In this document: positions 20,486 to 31,643 of the stretch, one piece after another
Layout: every line of letters starts with the position of its first letter
Position numbering within the stretch: position 1 is the first letter of the stretch
Source: Oscillospiraceae bacterium
Lineage (GTDB): Bacteria; Bacillota; Clostridia; Oscillospirales; Ruminococcaceae
DNA: 58,634 bases
NCBI GenBank assembly: GCA_028720105.1
Contig: JAQYLI010000021.1
Coordinates: 1-58,634, forward strand
Direction: 5' to 3'
The notes under the pieces: generated by a model
The model's input: the letters and a program-made list of their open reading frames with translations, nothing else
Databases searched by the model: none
What the model was told of the DNA's origin: nothing
Made by a program: the position numbers and the translations under genes

Positions 20486-21640
20486 TTATTTTTGCTCAAA
20501 CCCTTTGAGAGAATGTTTCTTTAATGCCGCTTCAAGCAGTTCGGGAAGTTTTTCCGGCGGACAGGCAAAGCAGGGAATGTCAAGAGCCGCTGCCTTGTCC
20601 GCCATTGCCGCATCGTACACAGGCTTTCCGCTGTCGGATATGGCAAGAAGTATCACAAGATTAACTCCCGACTGCTTTAATTCTTCAAGCCTGCGGATAA
20701 GTCCGTTTCTGTTGCCGCCCTCCATAAGGTCGGTCACAAGGACCATTGTGGTCTTTTCGGGTTCCTCAATAAGCTCAGTGCAGTATGCCACCGATTTTTC
20801 GATGTCCGTACCGCCGCCAAGCTGTATTCCGTAAAGAAGATCAACAGGGTCGGAGCAATGCTCTGTAAGGTCGGTCACATTTGTATCAAATGCCACCACG
20901 TGAGTTTTCAGTGAGTTCATACTTGCAAGTATGCACCCCACCACAGAGGAATATATTGCCGACTCCCCCATTGAGCCGCTCTGGTCAATATCAATAATGA
21001 CCGTTCTTGAAGCGGAACGGGAGGCTCTTTCGTAAAAATAAAATCTCTCGGGAAGAATTGTGTTAAGGTCGGTATTGAAATTTTTAAGATTTCGCCTTAC
21101 AGTCAGCTTATAGTCAAGTGCCGCCGCAGAGGGTATGGGTGAGTGCGCTCTCCTGTTCATAGCAGATGTCACAGAACGCTTTATGTCGTCCGAAAGACGG
21201 CGGTTAATGTCTTCCACAATTTTTGCGATATACGCTCTTGCGTTGTCCTTTGACTTCTGAGGTATCTGATCTTTAAGCATCAGCAGAAGCGAAGCTGTAT
21301 TTATATCGGGCTCGATTGACTCAAGCATTTCGGGCTCGAAAAGCAGCTGCTTCAAGCCCTTTCTTTCAATAGCGTCATTCTGTATGACCTTTATTTCCAT
21401 TGGAGAAAACAGGGTGCGCAGGTCGCCCAGCCATTTTGTAAGCTTAGGTGAAGAAGGTCCTCTGCCCGCATTGCCCGAAAGCCCCGACCCGTCATTTCCG
21501 TATATCTGGGAAAGTGCGCTGTCCATCAGCAGCTCTTCCGCCGACAATGCCGCAGCACCGCCCATCTGCTCCATCATCTTTTCGCTGTCCGCTCCAAGTA
21601 TTAGCCGCCAGCGTTTGAGAATTTCCTTATTATCCATCAT
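20486..21640 (-). CDS. VWA-domain protein of the SWIM-MoxR operon (384 aa, YehP-like)
   Basis: The C-terminal half is a von Willebrand A domain with the metal-ion site DQSGS (Asp219, Ser221, Ser223), a threonine in GGGTDIEKS and an Asp in LVTDLMEGG. The N-terminal half is helical with no named motif. It is the last gene of the operon and overlaps the DUF5682 gene by ATGA. In MoxR systems the VWA protein is the usual partner of the AAA+ ATPase and acts as a metal-dependent adaptor. The gene set resembles E. coli yehL-yehM-yehP-yehQ, in which this would be YehP. Biological function is unknown. Confidence 0.85.
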   Translation of the reverse strand: MMDNKEILKRWRLILGADSEKMMEQMGGAAALSAEELLMDSALSQIYGNDGSGLSGNAGRGPSSPKLTKWLGDLRTLFSPMEIKVIQNDAIERKGLKQLLFEPEMLESIEPDINTASLLLMLKDQIPQKSKDNARAYIAKIVEDINRRLSDDIKRSVTSAMNRRAHSPIPSAAALDYKLTVRRNLKNFNTDLNTILPERFYFYERASRSASRTVIIDIDQSGSMGESAIYSSVVGCILASMNSLKTHVVAFDTNVTDLTEHCSDPVDLLYGIQLGGGTDIEKSVAYCTELIEEPEKTTMVLVTDLMEGGNRNGLIRRLEELKQSGVNLVILLAISDSGKPVYDAAMADKAAALDIPCFACPPEKLPELLEAALKKHSLKGFEQK

Positions 21641-23877
21641 ATATCACCAAAATCAAAATCGTCAAGCTCGTCAATTGACTGCTGTTCATCACCTGACAGC
21701 TGCATTGTGACGAACTCCGCCGCAGCTTCCTTTGATATTCCAAGCACCTCGCCAATATTTTCCGCAATGTCGGACTTTTCCGCAGGAGAAAAATCGGAAA
21801 AAGTTCTTCTGAGAGCCACAAGAACGGGCTTGAACTCATCGTCATCAAGGCTTGCTACAAAACTGCACAGCTTTTCCCAAACGGAAAGCCTGCTGATAAG
21901 GGAGCGCCTGTTCCGCCTTGCAAGCCCTTCAAACCACATTGCTGCTTCAGCGGGAGGAGTGCCTGCTGAAAGCCGCCTGTTTATCAGCTCGGACAGCTTT
22001 TCGGAAGAGATTTTTCCCCGTTCCGTCAGCACCGCACAGGCATATCCCGAAAGCAGGGGATTTGCAAAATTATTGTCCGCAATGTCCGAAAGCAGGGTGA
22101 TAAATCTGTCGGTATCAAGGAAATCGTGGGCAAGGCAGGCATCGTTTACGGCGGCAATAGCTATAATAAGCTGCTCAACTCCATTTCTGTCGCACACAGC
22201 CGCAGAAGGCATACAGAGACAAAATCTCAGATACAGTTTTTCCATCAGGGGATAAATAGGTTCCGTATCTATTCTTCTGATACTTCCGAATCGGACAATG
22301 GAGGAAAGAGTGCCGATAGTTTTTCCCGTGTCCTCTGCGGAGGAGCAGTCTGCCGTCTGCTTCTGAATGGCGGAAACAGCGGTGGAAATGCAGTCCGTAA
22401 GTCCCCCGTCAAAGGCGTCGGAAAGGATCATCGCCGCCCCGTTTATGCTGTCCGCTTCATACAGCCTGAAATTAAGCTCATACTCTGCCGCCTGCTTTAC
22501 GGTGTCACCCTTGAGAGAAGCCTCGACTATCTCTATCTCAGCCTCGGGAGTCCATTGCAGTCTCCACCGCTCAGCCCAGGTGGCATTGTCCTGAGATCGA
22601 AGCTGAGTCTCCGCAAAGCATATGCCCAGTATCCGCAGACGATGTAGAAAGAAGGAGCGGTTAAGGTCAAGAAATGCCGACTTCTCCGTTTTCACTCTCA
22701 GATTTTCACGCAGATCAAGCTCAATCTCCTCTGCGGCAGCCTTTCTGTATTTTTCAAGCTTCAATTCTTTAAGCTGCCTTGTGAAATCCTCCTGCACCGA
22801 GGTGCATACGGTGCCTTCGGGCAGAGAGCCTATTTTCGTGCCTATCTCCGTATCGGCGCAGGCAAGAGATATTTCTCCGAATGAACCGTGTCCGATACAG
22901 GTTACGGCAGCGTCACGCAGGTCGGTCATACTCGGATATTTTCCCCCGCGCATTGCCGCAAGAGTGTCTGCAAGCCGCTTTGCTTCAATGACCTCGGCTG
23001 TAGATGCTGCATATCCGTTCTCACGCTGATACGAAGCTATCATTGAAAGATATCTGTCCGATGAACTGCCCACAGCGCCCTCAAGCCTGCTGTTCCACAA
23101 AAGCTCAAAGTATGCGGGTGCTTTGCTTCCCGCACCGTAGCCCGAACGGGAGGACAGCCTGTAGTAGGAATAGGGCATAAGGGTTGCCTTTGCCTTTATG
23201 GTGGGAAGCTTTTGGGTAAGCTTTCTGTCATCTGCCGAAAATGGGATATCTTTTATCCCTGCGGTATGAAATGCGCCTGTTATGACGCATATCTTTTCCG
23301 AAGGCACTTCCGCTTCACATTCGGATATCACTTTGCGCATATATGCTTCACGGAGCTTGTTATGCTCGTCATTTTCGGAAAACTCACGAAGGCTCTTACC
23401 GTATTCGGAAACCGCTTCAAGGAAATCCTCATAGCTTTCGCACTGCTCAAAGGTGTATTCCCAAAAGGAGTCGTTATCCGTTCCCGAAACTCTTTCAAGC
23501 TCAGTATAAACAGAGACTCGCTTCGGCTTGTCTTCTTCCCGTTCTTCATCTTCATTATTCTGACGGGACAATAAGCACGTTGAAGGCAGGTCGCAGAACA
23601 TTACCCGTCTGCCCTTTCTAACCGCCCATCTCATAGCCTGATACTCGGGGGAAAACTCTGCAAGGGGAAATAATACGGTCTTTACGGGCGTATCCTCGGT
23701 ATATGCGAGTATCGCCGCAGGCATTTCCGTTTCATTGCTGCAAAGCGGTGCAATGAGACAGCTAAGGTCGGAGGGACCCTCTATCAGCACTATCTCGGGG
23801 TCGTTTCGGTCAAGAAATTCCCTGACATAATAAGCGCAGGCAGGAGAAAGATGCCGCACGCCGAAATATGCCGCCAT
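21637..23877 (-). CDS. DUF5682 family protein (746 aa, YehM-like)
   Basis: I take the ATG at 23877, which shares a base with the MoxR stop (TAATG); an earlier start at 23898 would read through the ribosome binding site GGGAGAG. The N-terminal 210 residues carry GVRHLSPAC (Gly6, His9), IEGPSD (Glu33) and GAFHTAGI (Gly201, His204). Two GxxH motifs with a Glu between them recall the TraB/TIKI, ChaN and erythromycin-esterase superfamily; this link is my inference. The rest is helical. The protein sits between the MoxR ATPase and the VWA protein in the operon, as YehM does in E. coli. Confidence 0.82.
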   Translation of the reverse strand: MAAYFGVRHLSPACAYYVREFLDRNDPEIVLIEGPSDLSCLIAPLCSNETEMPAAILAYTEDTPVKTVLFPLAEFSPEYQAMRWAVRKGRRVMFCDLPSTCLLSRQNNEDEEREEDKPKRVSVYTELERVSGTDNDSFWEYTFEQCESYEDFLEAVSEYGKSLREFSENDEHNKLREAYMRKVISECEAEVPSEKICVITGAFHTAGIKDIPFSADDRKLTQKLPTIKAKATLMPYSYYRLSSRSGYGAGSKAPAYFELLWNSRLEGAVGSSSDRYLSMIASYQRENGYAASTAEVIEAKRLADTLAAMRGGKYPSMTDLRDAAVTCIGHGSFGEISLACADTEIGTKIGSLPEGTVCTSVQEDFTRQLKELKLEKYRKAAAEEIELDLRENLRVKTEKSAFLDLNRSFFLHRLRILGICFAETQLRSQDNATWAERWRLQWTPEAEIEIVEASLKGDTVKQAAEYELNFRLYEADSINGAAMILSDAFDGGLTDCISTAVSAIQKQTADCSSAEDTGKTIGTLSSIVRFGSIRRIDTEPIYPLMEKLYLRFCLCMPSAAVCDRNGVEQLIIAIAAVNDACLAHDFLDTDRFITLLSDIADNNFANPLLSGYACAVLTERGKISSEKLSELINRRLSAGTPPAEAAMWFEGLARRNRRSLISRLSVWEKLCSFVASLDDDEFKPVLVALRRTFSDFSPAEKSDIAENIGEVLGISKEAAAEFVTMQLSGDEQQSIDELDDFDFGDI

Positions 23878-24956
23878 TATGAATTTCTCTCCCTGCACTC
23901 GGCATAAAGCTTGGCACAGCCGCTTCTCTTGCGCATAACATTTTCAAGATATTCCGTCCAGACAGCCTTGTCCTTATTATCGTCCTTGACCACCGCTCCC
24001 TGGAGTGCCCCTGCCAGGTCATAATCGGTGATAACGCCGTTGCCGAAGCTGCCCGCAAGAGCCATACTGTTAATGAGAAGGGATATGGCTTCGGCGGAGG
24101 ACAATACTCCCGAGGTAGTTTTGAGCTTTACCTGACCGTCAAGTGTCTGACCGCTTCTCAGTTCCCTGAAAATGGTAACGACTCTCTCAATCGCAGTTCT
24201 GTCGGGAAGTTCGGCGTTAAGTCCGAAGCTGTCGGCAAGCTGTGCAACTCGGGTTGAAACTATTTCTATTTCCGTTTCAATATTGGCAGGTGCGGGAAGT
24301 ACAACGATATTGAAACGTCTTTTCAGCGCAGAGGACATCTCATTTACGCCCTTGTCACGTGTGTTTGCTGTGGCAATAACTGAGAAACCCTTCTTTGCGG
24401 CAACCTCTTCATTCAGCTCGGGAACGGATATCCGCTTTTCGGAAAGTATGGATATAAGTGCGTCCTGCACCTCGGAGGCGCAGCGGGAAATTTCCTCGAT
24501 TCGGGCAATGGTTCCCGTTTCCATAGCGTTATAAACAGGGCTTTTTACAAGCGCTTCGTGAGAGGGTCCCTTTGCAAGTAGCATTGCATAGTTCCAGCTG
24601 TAGCGTATCTGCTCCTCGGTGGTGCCAGCGGTTCCCTGTATCACTCGGGACGAATTGCCGTTTATGGCGGCGGTGAGATGCTCGGAAAGCCAGGATTTTG
24701 CGGTTCCCGGCTCGCCTATGAGAAGAAGGGCACGGTCTGTTACAAGGGTGGCAATGCATATCTCGGCAATGCGCCTGTCGCCCATATATTTGGGTGTGAT
24801 GACCGTATTCCCCGACTTGCCGCCCATAATGTATGTAAGCACGGATTTCGGCGACATTCTCCAGCCCGTGGGAACGGGATCTTTCTCATTTGCAATAAGA
24901 GCATCAAGCTCGGCTTTGTAAAGCTCCTCTGCTGGGAGTCTTAAAATATCTGACAT
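23877..24956 (-). CDS. MoxR-type AAA+ ATPase, YehL subgroup (359 aa)
   Basis: AAA+ ATPase with Walker A GEPGTAKS (residues 81-88), a Walker B region reading IARIEEISR (about 149-157) in place of the common IDEI, sensor 1 IATANTRDKG and an arginine finger region LKRRF. The EE form of Walker B and the sequence SEVQDALISILSEK are features I associate with the YehL subgroup. Such ATPases use ATP to remodel a target with a VWA partner. Upstream is the HEAT-like gene, six bases away, and the ribosome binding site is AAAGGA. Confidence 0.88.
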   Translation of the reverse strand: MSDILRLPAEELYKAELDALIANEKDPVPTGWRMSPKSVLTYIMGGKSGNTVITPKYMGDRRIAEICIATLVTDRALLLIGEPGTAKSWLSEHLTAAINGNSSRVIQGTAGTTEEQIRYSWNYAMLLAKGPSHEALVKSPVYNAMETGTIARIEEISRCASEVQDALISILSEKRISVPELNEEVAAKKGFSVIATANTRDKGVNEMSSALKRRFNIVVLPAPANIETEIEIVSTRVAQLADSFGLNAELPDRTAIERVVTIFRELRSGQTLDGQVKLKTTSGVLSSAEAISLLINSMALAGSFGNGVITDYDLAGALQGAVVKDDNKDKAVWTEYLENVMRKRSGCAKLYAECRERNS

Positions 24957-24962
24957 ATGCTT

Positions 24963-26807
24963 TTATCCTTTCATAATAAATTCTATCCAGCTTTTGATAC
25001 GTTTCATAAGATCGCTTCGTGTGTTTTCGTTAAAATTGCCCTTTGCCGCCGCAACACGGTTTAAAAGCTCTGTAAGCTCGTCTATCTTGTCGGAACTGGA
25101 CAGAGGCAGTCGATTTATTATTGAACAAGAAGTGGAAGCTCGCTTTGTAATTAGGGTACTGTAAATATATTCCGAAGCAATACCTCTGCACCTGTCAGCC
25201 ATGCTTTCGGGGCAGTACTTCGCAATAATGTCAACACAATAGTAAGAGGGGTATTTATTTGCCATATCAAAAGCAGCTTCAAGTACAGCGGAAACAATGC
25301 GTTCCCTGTCATAAGGCGCACAGCCCTCGATAAATCCCAACAGCGAGGAACAGATATCTTCATAGAATTTTTCATTTATATCGGACAGACTGCACATAAC
25401 ATCAAGCAGGCTGTCGGGAAAGCTTTCAAACAGAAAAGCCTTGCCCGCAGGCTCGCTGCCGTTTTTGGCAGGACCGCAGCGATACTCCGTAAAATATGCT
25501 TTATGAGCGGAAGAATATCTGATGTCGGCAAGAAGCCTTGTTACGGTATAATGCAGCTTTTCAAGGCTGCCCGAAAGAACGGACACAGCATCATCGGGGT
25601 CATCTATAAGTTTCATAAAGAAATATGCAGGAACAAAGTCATTGGGGCATTTCTTATAAAGCTCAAATATCAGACAGCGGAATTTCTCCTTGCCCTGATT
25701 TTGCAGATTTTTTATGAGAGTATCATTAAGAGAAGCATAATAATTTTCAGTCAGCTGCTCTCCTGCGCCCCACTTTTTAATGATATCCACCGCTTCAAGA
25801 TAGCAATTTGCAATGCCGCTTTTGTTTTTGAAAAGCGAAACAGTTCTTTCTATGGACAATGCCGACAATAAAATATCCTTATCGCAAGGAACCTGTGCCG
25901 TTTCATTCATCTTCGCTCTTACGAGCTCCTCAGCAGTTTGTGAGGGCGATATGCGTACATAATCCGAATACTTATCAAATTCCCCCTTTGCCTTTTCAAT
26001 AAGCTTTGAGAGTATTTCCTCAGCCTCGGGCGGGTCAAGCTCCAGCACAGCCATAAGAGCCGCATTTTTCACCTTGCCCTTTTCGGTGTTATAAAGCTCA
26101 AGGAGTACTTCGGCATTTGCAGGGTCATGGGACATTGCTTTTATTGCGGATATTCTTATATTCTGCGGAGCTTCGGAATTTTTTGCAAGGGAAATGTAAT
26201 AACCATTTTCCTTTTCGCCCGCTGCCATATAAATGTAATCTATCCTTGTGCCCGACGCTTTTTCGTCCGTAAGCAAAACGGCATTTTTAAGCATTGGCAC
26301 AATAGCCTCGCCCCATTTGTCTGTAACAATTTCGGCAAAGCTGTCAAGATATACATTGCCTTTTTCCGAGGCTTTAACAAAAGCCGAAAGCACACGCCCG
26401 TCCGAAACAAGCCTTATTTCATTATCGGTAAGCTCCTCAAGCTTAGGACTGCATTTTTCTATTTTCTCACAAAGCCCCGACAAAGCAGAATAGGTAACGG
26501 GAATTATTTTCATTTCCGTATTTATTTCCGACAGTTTCGTTTCGGAAGAGTCTGCAAAGCTGCCCTGTGTAACAGCCAGAGCGTCCGCAAGGGCAATGCA
26601 GTCGGAAAGCACGTCCGCAGGTCTGTCCGCTGTGAAAAGCTTTCCGCAGTCCGAATAAAGCTTCATAAACGCCTTGTTTGCCTGTGCCAGCGGCTCAAAG
26701 GCTTCTATGGCACGCTTTAGTCTGAAATCCTCATTTACAGCAAAGCAGCCCGATGCCGCAGAGGCGTAAAGCCTTGTTTTAAGCTCATAAAAAGGAGTTA
26801 TGTTCAT
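24963..26807 (-). CDS. Helical (HEAT-like) repeat protein of the SWIM-MoxR operon (614 aa)
   Basis: No enzyme motif. The middle has repeated helix pairs of HEAT character (IRISAIKAMSHDPANAEVLLELY and VKNAALMAVLELDPPEAEEIL, quoted in part), so it probably acts as a scaffold. It starts with MNITPFYELKTRLYASAAS, which is closely matched by the 47-residue protein encoded just upstream. Its ATG overlaps that gene's TGA (ATGA). Position between SWIM and MoxR genes is shared with related operons that I recall in other bacteria. Confidence 0.7.
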   Translation of the reverse strand: MNITPFYELKTRLYASAASGCFAVNEDFRLKRAIEAFEPLAQANKAFMKLYSDCGKLFTADRPADVLSDCIALADALAVTQGSFADSSETKLSEINTEMKIIPVTYSALSGLCEKIEKCSPKLEELTDNEIRLVSDGRVLSAFVKASEKGNVYLDSFAEIVTDKWGEAIVPMLKNAVLLTDEKASGTRIDYIYMAAGEKENGYYISLAKNSEAPQNIRISAIKAMSHDPANAEVLLELYNTEKGKVKNAALMAVLELDPPEAEEILSKLIEKAKGEFDKYSDYVRISPSQTAEELVRAKMNETAQVPCDKDILLSALSIERTVSLFKNKSGIANCYLEAVDIIKKWGAGEQLTENYYASLNDTLIKNLQNQGKEKFRCLIFELYKKCPNDFVPAYFFMKLIDDPDDAVSVLSGSLEKLHYTVTRLLADIRYSSAHKAYFTEYRCGPAKNGSEPAGKAFLFESFPDSLLDVMCSLSDINEKFYEDICSSLLGFIEGCAPYDRERIVSAVLEAAFDMANKYPSYYCVDIIAKYCPESMADRCRGIASEYIYSTLITKRASTSCSIINRLPLSSSDKIDELTELLNRVAAAKGNFNENTRSDLMKRIKSWIEFIMKG

Positions 26808-26947
26808 TTCAATTCCCCCTTCGGTTTATTCTGAAATTGTAAAATCAGCTTATCTGTGAATTTTCTTGACTCTTCAAGCATAGCCCCATCTGAAGCCGCA
26901 AATGCATAAAGCCTTTTCCTCATCTCGTAAAATTTTGTAATATCCAT
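26804..26947 (-). CDS. 47-residue protein matching the N-terminus of the HEAT-like protein
   Basis: MDITKFYEMRKRLYAFAASD can be aligned with the first 20 residues of the next protein with 13 identities; after that the two diverge and this one ends in KPKGELK. It begins three bases after the SWIM gene stop and overlaps the following gene by ATGA, so it is translated inside the operon. It may be a leftover of a tandem duplication or a functional stand-alone N-terminal module. Confidence 0.6.
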   Translation of the reverse strand: MDITKFYEMRKRLYAFAASDGAMLEESRKFTDKLILQFQNKPKGELK

Positions 26948-26949
26948 CG

Positions 26950-28383
26950 TCAGCAAAGCCTCAGAATACCCTTTTCGGTTACGATTGAAACAGGGCACAT
27001 ATAAATTCTCTTCTCCTCGGGAATGTAGAAAAGCTCGCCCAGCAATGCGCCGTTTTCAAGATATTCCCTGCTTGTGACCTTGAGAACATCACAGGTCCCG
27101 GGATAATTCTCATTTGCTCTGAGAGCAATTGTCTCTCCGCCAAGTTTCATTACGGGGTGTCCGTCGGATACCGCAAATTCAATGCTGTCAAACCTTATAA
27201 GCATTGCCACGCTACGGTCGGAAAGGGTGTTTTTCAGCTCATTCTTAGCCTTCTTCACAGCCTCGGAAATGCTGCCCTCGGCTTTGGTAATCAGCAATGG
27301 GTATGTCTCCGGAGCAGCGTCTGTTATTTCGGCGGCTTCCCATCTTATGCGCCTGTTCATTCCCCCGGGGTAGCGGTAAAGCTCCTTTATTAAATGCATT
27401 CCGAATGCACTGTCCTCGGATTTGATGTACTTCTGCGCTTTAAGCGGACGGATATTTTCTGTCTTTGATATCTCCCCCGTTTGAATATCAGCCCAGTATG
27501 CGGTGTCGATATCCGCCTTGTGCATATCATCGTGAAGCACAGTAAATGAAAGCTGAATTATCGCCGCATTTTCCTTGTAAAGTCCTATCTCCTTGAGCTG
27601 AGAGAGCTTCCACACATTTCCCATTGCCTCGTAAAGTATGCTGTCCTCGGGCAGAACATCGCCGCTCTCAAGCTTTGAAGCTATGTATGTCTTGCTCTTT
27701 TTTACAGTTGATGACAGCTTGACGCAAAGAGCGGTAAGCCTGTCTGTTTCAGCGTCATCGGGAGCTGAGGAAAGCTTCTGGGCAGCCGAAACTATCTCAT
27801 TCATTATAGCCTGAGGCTCGGGAAGATAATAGTCGCCAAGCTGCTTTGCAAGAGTCTTGTACTGCTCCGCAGAGGCTCTGCTCACCGAGGATATCCCCCT
27901 TGTGAACATATCGGTCACGAACTGCTCTGCAAGTTCCAGACCCTCTGCCTGTTTTTTAAGCTTTTTCTCGGCAGCAGCCTTGTTCTGCTTGGGAGCCTTT
28001 TTCTCCTCGGTAGGCATAGCCGCTTTTTCGGCGCGTTTTGCGGCTTTTTCACGTTTCTGTGCAATGTCCTCGGGTATCTCAGAAACGGTAAAGGGCTTTT
28101 TTGCCAGCCACTCGAACATCAGCGCAAGGCTGTGCTTGCAGGGAAACTGCCTGCTTGGGCAGGAACAGCGGAAGACGGGCGATTCCCCCGAAAAATCCGC
28201 AGAGGTATGATAGGGATTTTTTCCGCTGCCCATACATTCGCCGAAGATAAGTGTTTCGTCCGCAGTCTTTGAAAGCGCTCTGAAATCTCCCGAAGCGGAG
28301 ATCTTCTTTCCGTTTGACACCGCCGCCGCATTAGGCGCAACCGAGCGGATAAGCTCTTCCGTTATGATATTTGCCGAAGCCAT
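26950..28383 (-). CDS. SWIM zinc-finger protein (477 aa)
   Basis: The SWIM motif is Cys73-x-Cys75-x6-Cys82-x-His84 (FRCSCPSRQFPCKH). A Lys/Ala-rich stretch follows (KRAEKAAMPTEEKKAPKQNKA, in part), then a mixed domain with no named motif. SWIM domains bind DNA or proteins. An ATG at 28398 would lie upstream of the site GGGAGG, so I use the ATG at 28383. The protein corresponds in role to E. coli YehQ but is first among the core genes here. Confidence 0.82.
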   Translation of the reverse strand: MASANIITEELIRSVAPNAAAVSNGKKISASGDFRALSKTADETLIFGECMGSGKNPYHTSADFSGESPVFRCSCPSRQFPCKHSLALMFEWLAKKPFTVSEIPEDIAQKREKAAKRAEKAAMPTEEKKAPKQNKAAAEKKLKKQAEGLELAEQFVTDMFTRGISSVSRASAEQYKTLAKQLGDYYLPEPQAIMNEIVSAAQKLSSAPDDAETDRLTALCVKLSSTVKKSKTYIASKLESGDVLPEDSILYEAMGNVWKLSQLKEIGLYKENAAIIQLSFTVLHDDMHKADIDTAYWADIQTGEISKTENIRPLKAQKYIKSEDSAFGMHLIKELYRYPGGMNRRIRWEAAEITDAAPETYPLLITKAEGSISEAVKKAKNELKNTLSDRSVAMLIRFDSIEFAVSDGHPVMKLGGETIALRANENYPGTCDVLKVTSREYLENGALLGELFYIPEEKRIYMCPVSIVTEKGILRLC

Positions 28384-28426
28384 TTTTATTCCTCCCAAAA
28401 TTTCAGTATTTATATCCGTTAAGATA

Positions 28427-28432
28427 ATTATA
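28427..28432 (-). promoter_or_regulatory. Possible internal -10 box ahead of the SWIM gene
   Basis: A minus-strand TATAAT lies 44 bases before the SWIM start, in the 83-base gap after the LRR gene. No good -35 with normal spacing was found, so an internal promoter is only possible. Confidence 0.35.
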
Positions 28433-28466
28433 GCATATTACCTGTGTAAAAAATCGGACAATACGA

Positions 28467-30188
28467 TCAAGGCTCATTTATATGCATATCGGGAAACCGT
28501 TCTCCTAAAAAACAAAGCATTTCCGTATCGCTCTGCTTTTTTGCATACTTTACCGCCCTGCGGATATGGAGCCTTAAATATTCCTCATATCGTGTGCGGC
28601 TCCTGCCTGTAAGCTTATATCCGCCCGCCAGACGCTTGTATGCAATATCAATGAGCATATCCATAGGCATTCCCGTGTCGAGTATCCCTTCATCATAGGC
28701 ATTTATATCAAACATTACATCGAACACCCTGTAATAAAGCTCAATGGTTTTCCTATATGCGGGATTATTGCCGATATTTTTCGGAAAGGCAACAGGAATT
28801 TCGGAACTGCCGTTTTGGGTGATAAAGGTAAGCGTTATATTTGTGCTGACGAATCGGTAAACCGTCGAAGGTCCATTTGAGCTGTATATCTGCACATTGG
28901 GATTTTTGAACGTAAGCCGTTTGGCAAAGGAAAAAAGATTTATATCATTTATCTTCGTAACACTTTCGGGAAAAACTATTTCCATTCCCGATATTTTGCT
29001 CCACCGTCTTTCAAGATCATATCTGCTCATATCGCCCGATATTATGCGGACATTATCGGATATCTGCCACAGGCTGCCCGAAAAATCCGGTCTGATGCTA
29101 AAAAGAACGCCGTTAATAACTATGCCGTCCTTTGTGACGCTTTCGTTTTCAAGTGCCGTTCTCGTAAACGGATAACCTCGGAACTTGATATCGGCACCTA
29201 TTCTGACTCTGCTGTCAAGGCTTAGGCAGTTTTTAAATGCGTCGCCATAAATCACTTTCACATTTCTCAGATCAATGTCCCAAAGCTTTTCACAGTCCTT
29301 AAAGGCGTTTCTGCTTATTGTTCTTACAGAGGGTGGAAGGATAACTCTTTCAAGAGCTTTTATGCTTTTAAAGGCATCCTGTCCTATAACCTTAATTCCA
29401 TCGGGAACGGTGAATACCCTGTCATCTGTACTGACCCTTTGAAGAACATCGCCTGTGATAAGCACATCACAGCTTTTCTCAAAAGGTGTACCGAAAAATA
29501 CCCTATCGCCGCAATACTCAGCCTTTTCCCACGATACCCTTGAAAGCGCTGTGCAATTGCCGAAGCACTCGTCTAAAAGAGAACAGCTTTTCAGCTTCAC
29601 CTCTTCAAGAGCTGTGCACCTGCCAAAAGCACTGCCTTCAATAAATGCCTTTCTACCGAAATGAAGGTTTTTCAGCTTTGTCTGATCGTAAAAGGCAAGC
29701 TTGCCTATTCGCACATAGGCTTCGGGAAAATAAATTTCCGTAAAAATCGGTCCCCACAATTTTTTCTTGATATTACATCCCGGTATTCTGAATGCTCTGA
29801 ACGCACCTTCACCTATTTCAGTCAGAGTATCCGGAAAAACAAGCACAGCATTTTTTATATTAGGTTCAACAATGGGACGGCAGCTGTCGGCTATCCTCAC
29901 AACAGGGTGGTTGTCAATATATGCGGGGATAATTATTTTTTCCGATTTAACGTGAATACTTGTAATGATAACCTGCTTTTTTCTTGTATAACAAAACTGA
30001 AAGCCTGCCTGCTGAGCTTCCCTGAACGTTAAATGAAGCTCGTTGTTTTGGACTTCTGTATCGGGCTTGGGATTATCCGAAACAACAGGAAAAGCAGCCG
30101 GCTTTTCACTTTTTTTATCGGCAGAAGTATTCCCCGAAGGCTTTTTCAGCACCGCTGCAATATCGGAAAGCATTTTGAATATATCCAT
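28467..30188 (-). CDS. BspA-type leucine-rich-repeat protein, apparently cytoplasmic (573 aa)
   Basis: The middle of the protein contains several LRR_5/BspA-like units (VVRIADSC, LTEIGEGAFRAF, IKVIGQDAFKSI, VRTISRNAFKDC). There is no signal peptide, membrane helix or wall anchor, which differs from the many secreted BspA proteins of gut bacteria. The start lies one base after the SDR stop, so the two genes are one unit, and the SWIM operon follows after 83 bases. It could be a recognition partner for the operon. That role is inference. Confidence 0.75.
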   Translation of the reverse strand: MDIFKMLSDIAAVLKKPSGNTSADKKSEKPAAFPVVSDNPKPDTEVQNNELHLTFREAQQAGFQFCYTRKKQVIITSIHVKSEKIIIPAYIDNHPVVRIADSCRPIVEPNIKNAVLVFPDTLTEIGEGAFRAFRIPGCNIKKKLWGPIFTEIYFPEAYVRIGKLAFYDQTKLKNLHFGRKAFIEGSAFGRCTALEEVKLKSCSLLDECFGNCTALSRVSWEKAEYCGDRVFFGTPFEKSCDVLITGDVLQRVSTDDRVFTVPDGIKVIGQDAFKSIKALERVILPPSVRTISRNAFKDCEKLWDIDLRNVKVIYGDAFKNCLSLDSRVRIGADIKFRGYPFTRTALENESVTKDGIVINGVLFSIRPDFSGSLWQISDNVRIISGDMSRYDLERRWSKISGMEIVFPESVTKINDINLFSFAKRLTFKNPNVQIYSSNGPSTVYRFVSTNITLTFITQNGSSEIPVAFPKNIGNNPAYRKTIELYYRVFDVMFDINAYDEGILDTGMPMDMLIDIAYKRLAGGYKLTGRSRTRYEEYLRLHIRRAVKYAKKQSDTEMLCFLGERFPDMHINEP

Positions 30189-30189
30189 T

Positions 30190-31223
30190 TTAATACTCCA
30201 TTATTTTGTAATCCTTGTAAAGTGCGCCAATGTCTTTCGGCTTTTTTTCGTCGTTCAGATGCTCATATATGGGGGCGCAGATACGTGCCGCACCGTCATC
30301 AAAGGATAGATAGGGCTTGAAATTTTTTGAGACATCATACTCCGACGGGAACTGATTTGATATCCAGCCGGGGTCAACGCTGTACATATAAATTCGCTCC
30401 GCGGCAAATTTCCCTGCAAGAGAATGGGTCATCATATTAAGAGAAGCCTTTGCCATATTTGTGTGAACGTGACGGGCAAGCTTTATTTTATGATTGAACC
30501 GCCCCTCCACCGAGGAGACGTTTATAATAAACCTGTTGGGGTGAGCGCTTTTTGCCATATGACCTTTCAGCTGAGCCGTAAGCAGAAAGGGCGCAGTCAC
30601 GTTTATAAGCTGTACCTCAAGCAGCTCTGCGGCGGAAATCTCCTCGCTCTTTGCCACCCAGGAATTATGGTGGGGCGTTTCGTAAAGTGACAGGTCATTG
30701 TCACTGCTTGCAGGAAGAAGCTCATACGCCTCCTCTCCCGAAGTCAGGATACGGGCAGGCAGCTCACCGCAAAATTCCAGCCTAAGCCGTTCCTCCCCTG
30801 CGGCAAGCTCAGCATAATATGACGGTGCCTTGCGTATGGTCTGTGCGGCATTGTTTATGAGAATATCAAGACCGTTCGGGAACATTTCCTTTACATAGGA
30901 AATAAGCATATCCATTCTGTCCGCACGTTTTAAATCAAATCCGCATATATGAAGCCTGTCTCCGAACTCATTAAAATCAGGCTCGGCGGAATATCTTTTC
31001 ATTGCGTCATATGGAAAGCGGGTCACGGCAATGACCTCTGCGCCGTTTCTCAGCAGCCTGAGACAGGTGTGATAGCCGATATTTATCCTTCCCCCGTAAC
31101 AAGCGCCGTGTAGCCCGAAAGGTCGGCGCTCACAGCCCTGTGCAGAGCATTCATTTTCTCGCAGTCGGGACATATTCCGTAATGCTCGATATTTTGCCTT
31201 TTGCATATAAGACACTGCCGCAT
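30190..31223 (-). pseudogene. Zinc-ribbon SDR-family oxidoreductase, broken by a one-base frameshift
   Basis: From ATG 31223 the first frame reads MRQCLICKRQNIEHYGICPDC (two CxxC pairs) and ends with SGYTALVTGEG then a stop at 31083. The second frame continues with GGRINIGYHTCLRLLRNGAEV, ILINNAAQT and the C-terminal part of a short-chain dehydrogenase. Joining them needs one additional G in the G5 run at 31091-31095, giving VTGGRINIG, the normal nucleotide-binding loop. So it is one SDR gene of about 344 codons, disrupted by a homopolymer change or a sequencing error. Further SDR features are the NNA motif and PGWISNQ near the end. It opens the SWIM-MoxR operon. Confidence 0.8.
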
Positions 31224-31245: not shown

Positions 31246-31274
31246 ATTATAACATTATAAAAATAAACTGTCAA
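31246..31274 (-). promoter_or_regulatory. Promoter of the SDR-LRR-SWIM-MoxR operon
   Basis: Minus-strand TTGACA (31274-31269), a 17-base spacer and TATAAT (31251-31246): a full consensus. It stands back-to-back with the tRNA promoter, the two -35 boxes being two bases apart. Confidence 0.85.
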
Positions 31275-31305: not shown

Positions 31306-31381
31306 ATATATGCCATTCCTCGTGCATTTGCAGAGCCACACCCTCACATGTGTGTGAAAGAGCCTTGCTCTTTCAGGGGCA

Positions 31382-31455
31382 GCTGTGGTAGTTTAACCGG
31401 TAAAACTCCCTCCCGCCAAGAGGGGAATATGTCGGTTCGAGTCCGACCCGCAGCT
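31382..31455 (+). tRNA. tRNA-Gly, anticodon GCC, with C33 and no encoded CCA
   Basis: A full cloverleaf folds: acceptor GCTGTGG/CCGCAGC (one G-T pair), D arm GTTT/AAAC with loop AACCGGTA, anticodon stem CCCTC/GAGGG with loop CCGCCAA (anticodon GCC at 31115+300, i.e. bases 31415-31417), a six-base variable loop, T arm GTCGG/CCGAC with loop TTCGAGT, and discriminator T. The universally conserved T33 is C here. CCA is not encoded; a T run follows instead. It is a lone gene with its own strong promoter. Confidence 0.8.
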
Positions 31456-31491
31456 TTTTTATAAAACCGGATTTATGGAATACTGCAAAAG

Positions 31492-31532
31492 GCTCCTGCA
31501 TCACTATCTGATTTATAGTGATGCAGGAGCTT
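31492..31532. terminator. Strong hairpin between the tRNA and the YbaN-like gene
   Basis: GCTCCTGCATCACTAT and ATAGTGATGCAGGAGC form a perfect 16-base stem. It can end the tRNA transcript from the left and the converging minus-strand operon from the right. Confidence 0.7.
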
Positions 31533-31643
31533 TACTTTTGGTGATAATTTTGAAAGATCATATAGCTGCGAGAACGAGTATTAAAAATCCCCGGAGCATT
31601 TGCGTATTTGTCAAAACCAATCACCTCTCAATGTTTTAATCGA

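Follow-up and report, generated by a model that had tools for sequence, protein, structure and literature searches.

The question that this locus raises is whether a tightly packed run of eight genes on the minus strand constitutes a single system, and what such a system may do for the cell. The stretch analysed is a contig of 58,634 nucleotides from an Oscillospiraceae bacterium (assembly GCA_028720105.1, contig JAQYLI010000021.1), hereafter the window. An earlier note had suggested that the run may unite a recognition module, a scaffold, an ATPase switch and a possible effector in a stress, quality-control or defence system; our analyses agree with it on the conserved core and do not support it on the short-chain dehydrogenase (SDR) gene, the leucine-rich-repeat (LRR) gene, the shared promoter and the role in defence. 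The locus looks like two adjacent modules, a core and an SDR-LRR pair, rather than one eight-gene system: five of the eight genes constitute a widespread bacterial operon, also found in E. coli, for which we infer a protein-remodelling role.

The ORFs and Pfam matches of the window place a co-oriented run of minus-strand genes with named domains at 20486-31223, comprising seven domain proteins and a 47-codon ORF. Read from 31223 to 20486, the order is SDR, LRR, SWIM, 47-codon ORF, HEAT-like, MoxR, DUF5682 and VWA. The features are as follows:

20486..21640, minus strand: VWA protein (CoxE-like), 384 aa, core; VWA_CoxE E 1.9e-43
21637..23898, minus strand: DUF5682 protein, 753 aa, core; PF18934 E 5.5e-154, N-terminal ~250 aa probably Tiki-superfamily-like
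23877..24956, minus strand: MoxR-type AAA+ ATPase, 359 aa, core; AAA_5 E 1.5e-40
24963..26807, minus strand: HEAT-like helical-repeat protein, 614 aa, core; HEAT_2 E 0.015, below cut-off
26804..26947, minus strand: 47-codon ORF, possible truncated duplicate; likeness to the N-terminus of the HEAT-like gene
26950..28398, minus strand: SWIM zinc-finger protein, 482 aa as listed, core; SWIM E 1.4e-4, above cut-off
28427..28435, minus strand: extended -10 TGCTATAAT, candidate separate core promoter; consensus match
28467..30188, minus strand: BspA-type leucine-rich-repeat protein, 573 aa, neighbouring module; LRR_5 E 4.8e-27
30190..31223, minus strand: zinc-ribbon short-chain dehydrogenase gene split over two frames, neighbouring module; adh_short E 2.9e-18
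31246..31274, minus strand: promoter-like TTGACA-17-TATAAT with TG, before the SDR gene; 12/12 consensus positions

By their coordinates, the SDR and LRR genes are separated by 1 bp, SWIM and the small ORF by 2 bp, and the HEAT-like and MoxR genes by 6 bp, while the small ORF and the HEAT-like gene share an ATGA overlap, MoxR and DUF5682 overlap by 22 bp with a GTG start, and DUF5682 and VWA overlap by 4 bp. The 68 bp between LRR and SWIM are the exception to this tight spacing. The eight-gene run described earlier is confirmed for its genes and domains, with corrections for the 68-bp gap and for the SDR gene, whose frame is interrupted. The SWIM gene may start at a later ATG than that listed for 482 aa. 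Nineteen residues of the 47-codon ORF are 68% identical to the N-terminus of the HEAT-like gene, and the ORF may therefore be a truncated duplicate of it; a tandem pair of full-length HEAT-like genes was observed inside another core operon (L033:8251-12156). The genes around the locus are metabolic and transport genes. Divergent from the operon, a tRNA-Gly (gcc) gene lies on the plus strand at 31381-31456, and after it, at 31489-31533, comes a strong hairpin resembling a terminator.

The run had been placed under one consensus promoter. The 12/12 consensus match, at 31274-31246, lies ahead of the SDR gene, and a second consensus match, the extended -10 TGCTATAAT, lies on the minus strand inside the 68-bp LRR-SWIM gap; a single promoter for the whole run is therefore not established. 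Among 15 type-A loci (described below), 7, including the window and one locus with a variant hexamer, have a consensus match to an extended -10 no more than 90 bp ahead of SWIM. The extended -10 TGNTATAAT occurs 9 times in the window as a whole, where shuffles lead one to expect 2.3.

The core had also been matched to yehLMPQ of E. coli, and a conserved unit of this type was borne out both by the gene order in E. coli and by the neighbourhoods of 63 other DUF5682 loci. Within 9 kb of these loci, many of which are cut by contig ends, MoxR was found in 58/63, VWA in 58/63 and SWIM in 47/63. The 63 comprise 24 family, 14 order and 25 wider loci; several genomes give more than one locus, and several of the wider loci come from a single genome. 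Left out of the count were the fragmented contigs of G016 and G103 (L055-L058), a weak match in G020 (L059), E. coli (L104), the phage-labelled L222 and the window itself. DUF5682 was matched in 28/197 family genomes (27 above the cut-off), in neither of the two congeners in the family sample, and in 18/295 genomes of the order sample, which overlaps the family sample. An empty-site comparison with the two congeners gave no match there for two flanking-gene queries.

Two types of locus were distinguished in the family. Type A, to which the window belongs, has the order SWIM-HEAT-MoxR-DUF5682-VWA, with the HEAT-like gene in the same slot in 11/24 loci. Type B has the order MoxR-DUF5682-VWA-SWIM-DUF4132 or a variant of it, with DUF4132 in 10/24, and the remaining 3/24, one of them a short contig, have neither. 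The HEAT-like type also occurs in a Fusobacterium record. Annotated records of a plasmid collection contain SWIM-DUF5691-MoxR-DUF5682-VWA, or SWIM fused to DUF5691; 36 records carry the core, although some of these are chromosomes (e.g., of 2.1 and 11.9 Mb). The operons of Deinococcus, Rhizobium and Methylosinus share the order and four of the five gene families with the window, but have DUF5691 between SWIM and MoxR, and no alignment of DUF5691 with the HEAT-like protein of the window was obtained; in Hymenobacter the SWIM and DUF5691 genes are fused. The SWIM proteins of the window type and of the DUF5691-type operons do align in a profile comparison (E 1.9e-26). Counts of DUF5691 in Actinobacteria made with a profile that included a SWIM part were not used; once that part is taken out, only 3 loci pass. 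In the Methylosinus plasmid copy, the VWA region (L229:12211-13379) lies in three frames and the gene may be broken. The recurrence of the core order across phyla indicates more than chance.

In E. coli K-12, yehL (MoxR), yehM, yehP (VWA) and yehQ (SWIM) are consecutive, and yehM matches DUF5682. The window thus has the MoxR, DUF5682, VWA and SWIM genes of the E. coli operon together, with MoxR, DUF5682 and VWA in the same relative order. The full E. coli order, however, is yehI(DUF4132)-yehK-yehLMPQ, with SWIM placed after VWA; its large helical partner, encoded upstream, is the DUF4132 protein YehI and not a HEAT_2 protein, whereas the window locus has the HEAT-like gene. The HEAT-like scaffold of the earlier proposal is supported as a member of the core, as a helical-repeat protein. 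The yehLMPQ genes, with at least 80% of the query covered, were found in 5162/5426 E. coli genomes and are nearly all chromosomal. RavA and YehL are given as the two MoxR proteins of E. coli in PMC3893208. The papers listed in our literature search for yehL, yehM, yehP or yehQ almost all carried a surname of the same spelling, and no paper naming DUF5682 or DUF5691 was found in the literature searched, beyond which such work may exist.

The SDR-LRR pair behaves differently from the core, and looks like a separate neighbouring pair. Although both genes had been counted as parts of the unit, SDR adjoins none of the 63 other DUF5682 loci, and LRR only 2/63, both from one genus. Relatives of the SDR were found in 5/197 family genomes and 2/295 order genomes, the window's own being counted in both. 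All 5 other SDR-positive genomes carry DUF5682, with SDR and core on different contigs where this was looked at. In the family sample, DUF5682 is present in 4/4 other SDR-positive genomes versus 26/196 overall (p 2.5e-4, or 0.002 when one genus is collapsed). In two genomes of the genus with the two LRR cases (G028 and G139), an LRR gene follows the SDR within 10 bp on contigs other than that of the core, and the LRR proteins are 24% and 19% identical to that of the window; in two others (G103 and G135) the SDR has no following LRR gene. Among far SDR homologues, core genes were close by in 1/66 loci and DUF5682 was present in 14/50 genomes. As the far homologues mostly lack the core and the pair occurs on separate contigs, the SDR-LRR pair is able to stand by itself, and in this family it may be loosely tied to the core.

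The SDR gene itself lies in two frames: the zinc ribbon, with its ATG at 31223, is encoded in one and the dehydrogenase domain in the other, with the change in a G run at ~31091-31095; in the aligned relatives both parts are in a single frame, and the frame change may be either a sequencing error or real. The classical SDR active site is YxxxK. In the SDR of the window (30190-31119), the tyrosine position is occupied by T253 (alignment A1), which is invariant in 6/6 sequences, and the classical motif is not present. A regular-expression look at the C-termini of the LRR proteins gave nothing usable. In two species of a genus other than the window's (g29; L051 and L054), BspA-type LRR genes lie between the MoxR, DUF5682 and VWA genes, at partly different positions.

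A competing view is that all eight genes form one functional unit, in which the LRR protein serves recognition and the SDR is an enzyme. The tight spacing, the presence of DUF5682 in SDR-positive family genomes above chance, the LRR genes interleaved with the core in genus g29 and the small number of LRR_5 matches in the window's genome (only 4) are consistent with it, but we regard it as very unlikely in view of the adjacency counts, the SDR-LRR genes on non-core contigs in G028 and G139, the candidate core promoter within the 68-bp gap, the core missing near most far SDR homologues and the interrupted SDR frame. The neighbourhood comparison proposed in the earlier note gave a divided answer: SDR adjoins none and LRR few of the other DUF5682 loci, but SDR-positive family genomes carry DUF5682 and LRR genes occur inside the g29 core.

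Returning to the core as a module of its own, its members differ greatly in their rate of divergence. The mean pairwise identity among 11 type-A loci (55 pairs) was 77% for MoxR, 66% for VWA, 55% for DUF5682, 50% for SWIM and 33% for the HEAT-like protein, which is the fastest-diverging core member. In the close pair L037-L040, however, the HEAT-like gene is as conserved as the other core genes. Four pairs were compared part by part for this protein: conservation peaks at the N-terminus in two of them, and in three the C-terminal half shows the greatest divergence. The core genes are under purifying selection in the three pairs with finite dS for every gene (dN/dS 0.03-0.20); positive selection on the HEAT-like gene was considered and rejected, as its dN/dS of 0.10-0.20, where measurable, points to relaxed or diversified purifying selection instead. 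Alternative helical proteins (HEAT-like, DUF4132 or DUF5691) accompany MoxR. By hhalign, the HEAT-like protein has a weak link to DUF4132 (E 5.8e-4) and could not be aligned with DUF5691 (E 0.62), and the equivalence of these last two therefore rests on position.

The MoxR-VWA pair of the window has intact nucleotide and MIDAS-type motifs. In MoxR, whose nearest solved relative is midasin, GEPGTAK, N198, R213 and R214 (Walker-A, sensor and arginine positions) are invariant among 27 sequences. In VWA, D219, S221, S223, T278 and D304, which we take to be the MIDAS-type set, are likewise invariant (n=27). The SWIM protein carries the CSCPSRQFPCKH motif common to its type-A relatives. RavA-ViaA and CoxD-CoxE resemble the window in pairing a MoxR ATPase with a VWA partner; both belong to subfamilies other than those of the window proteins, and neither is known to have a DUF5682, SWIM or HEAT-like partner.

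The N-terminal domain of DUF5682 is probably a hydrolase-type domain of the Tiki superfamily (ChaN/TraB/EreA-like), a weak-to-moderate assignment made from sequence comparison. Among 23 DUF5682 proteins, ChaN was matched by 8 (best E 9.2e-4), TraB by 3 (best 0.0098) and erythromycin esterase by 1 (0.11), all below the curated Pfam cut-offs; the window's own DUF5682 gave no Tiki-type Pfam match. Aligned by hhalign with 6 ChaN sequences, the N-terminal region gave E 2.4e-4 over 183 columns (probability 44%), compared with 0.78 when the profile was reversed and at best 0.07 among 100 column shuffles; with 5 TraB sequences the value was 7.6e-4 (reversed 0.052; best of 100 shuffles 0.052), and ChaN and TraB themselves aligned at 0.003. 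The closest of eight other control alignments was to the SDR, with E 0.0078 over 17 columns; the remaining controls gave 0.05 or worse. H16, E40, D103 and H211 are invariant in the 23 sequences; among the Tiki proteins (ChaN, TraB/GumN, erythromycin esterase), ChaN aligns with the motifs around H16, E40 and H211, and both H16 and H211 align with ChaN histidines. DUF5682 differs from these proteins in its long further helical region and in having R where GExH has E; as GEFH of ChaN corresponds to GVRH in DUF5682, its activity is uncertain. A search of solved structures with the DUF5682 profile returned only E 2.3 and 7.1, a single-sequence comparison with YbaP was weak (E 0.04), and two single-sequence AlphaFold models (mean pLDDT 43 and 35) were unusable. 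Even so, the suggestion that DUF5682 is a possible effector gains support from this likeness.

We next consider what the core may do. One possibility is an anti-phage or other conflict system not yet recognised as related to the MoxR-vWA ternary systems, in which the variable helical protein would serve as sensor and DUF5682 as effector. Its layout follows the logic of the systems of Kaur et al. 2020 (PMC7159879), and PMC12839542 describes MoxR-vWA-iSTAND systems of similar layout with peptidase effectors. The spread is patchy (28/197 family genomes, 0/2 congeners), and 36 records of the plasmid collection, some of them chromosomes, carry the core. Close to the Methylosinus copy are a toxin-antitoxin pair, a recombinase and transposases, and the Hymenobacter copy has a PDDEXK nuclease and a recombinase nearby. 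In the ternary systems (VMAP, iSTAND and others; PMC7159879), a MoxR-VWA pair is likewise joined by further components, one of them fast evolving; the window core, however, has a separate Tiki-like protein rather than a VWA-fused effector. The seven window proteins gave no Pfam match to a VMAP, iSTAND, FtsH or beta-propeller third component, the window MoxR fell just below the cut-off for bpMoxR (26.5 versus 27 bits), and YehL is not mentioned in the excerpted text of Kaur et al. (PMC7159879).

Several further results argue against a conflict system. The best PADLOC match of the seven window proteins, with matches up to 0.1 taken, had E 0.0021. In a rough test, the PADLOC matches listed for the core flanks (139 proteins; 25 of 40 families) were mostly to kinase- or regulator-type families, whereas 132 control proteins from the same genomes included a restriction-modification locus; as the flanks showed no visible excess of defence families over the controls, a defence island was rejected. 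Phage carriage was rejected as well, two pattern scans of viral contigs being empty and the sole phage-labelled match looking bacterial otherwise. That record (L222; MT835988.1, marked UNVERIFIED) is 14 kb long and carries MoxR-DUF5682 genes, and its other long ORFs look bacterial in our reading. Together with yehLMPQ being present, nearly always on the chromosome, in most E. coli genomes examined, these results do not bear out the defence role envisaged earlier, and we consider it unlikely.

The core might also be a complex that responds to genotoxic or general stress, which would fall within the explanation that we prefer as a special case; we hold this to be less likely still. The DUF4132 partner of type-B loci and of E. 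coli also exists in D. radiodurans, as DRA0166, which is induced by mitomycin C via IrrE/DdrO according to PMC8533742, where MolR is said to have been described as a LexA-regulon member. Deletion of molR1 (47.3 min) has a synthetic growth defect with lepA in E. coli (PMC4245954), and both findings hint at a stress role. However, the D. radiodurans DUF4132 genes are not tied to a MoxR-DUF5682 operon in the sources cited, a LexA-like box was absent from the 160 bp upstream of SWIM in all 15 loci scanned, and such boxes are no commoner in the window than in shuffles.

Cofactor insertion of the CoxD/CoxE kind, for example into molybdenum enzymes, is suggested by VWA_CoxE being the best VWA family, by the old name molR in the E. 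coli neighbourhood and by a MoaC gene (L036:2241-2648) ~4.6 kb from the core in G157. MoaC is nevertheless present in 4/27 DUF5682-positive versus 17/170 other genomes (Fisher p 0.50), and 23/27 carriers, including the window's own 86%-complete genome, lack it. With no MoaC association, molybdenum-cofactor insertion was rejected, and we give this reading hardly any weight.

The reading that we prefer, with a probability of roughly 40% and thus tentatively, is that the locus comprises two modules and that the core is a cytosolic MoxR/VWA machine controlling a Tiki-type DUF5682 hydrolase via a variable adaptor. The MoxR AAA+ ATPase and VWA would act as a cytosolic chaperone-cochaperone pair working with DUF5682. 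The helical-repeat subunit, HEAT-like here and DUF4132 or DUF5691 elsewhere, would dock to the complex through its conserved N-terminus and hold the substrate by its variable part, while SWIM may provide a zinc-dependent contact with nucleic acid or protein. By analogy with the MoxR-VWA principle described by Kaur et al. (PMC7159879), in which VWA captures a peptide and ATP-driven remodelling follows, VWA would capture a peptide and ATP use by MoxR would then remodel the complex, whereupon DUF5682 may act on the target. Such a machine probably processes proteins conditionally or serves their quality control, phage defence being the less likely role.

A bolder version, which we hold to be rather doubtful, is that DUF5682 is an ATP-gated Tiki hydrolase and the operon a fifth kind of MoxR-vWA machine, whose swappable, fast-diverging helical protein (HEAT-like, DUF4132 or DUF5691) picks the target for regulated processing in the cytosol, in several phyla including E. 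coli. Although uncharacterised, the operon spans several phyla and is carried by most of the E. coli genomes examined. If DUF5682 is a Tiki-type hydrolase, this conserved machine would gain a testable chemistry and named residues, with E. coli K-12 as a convenient laboratory host.
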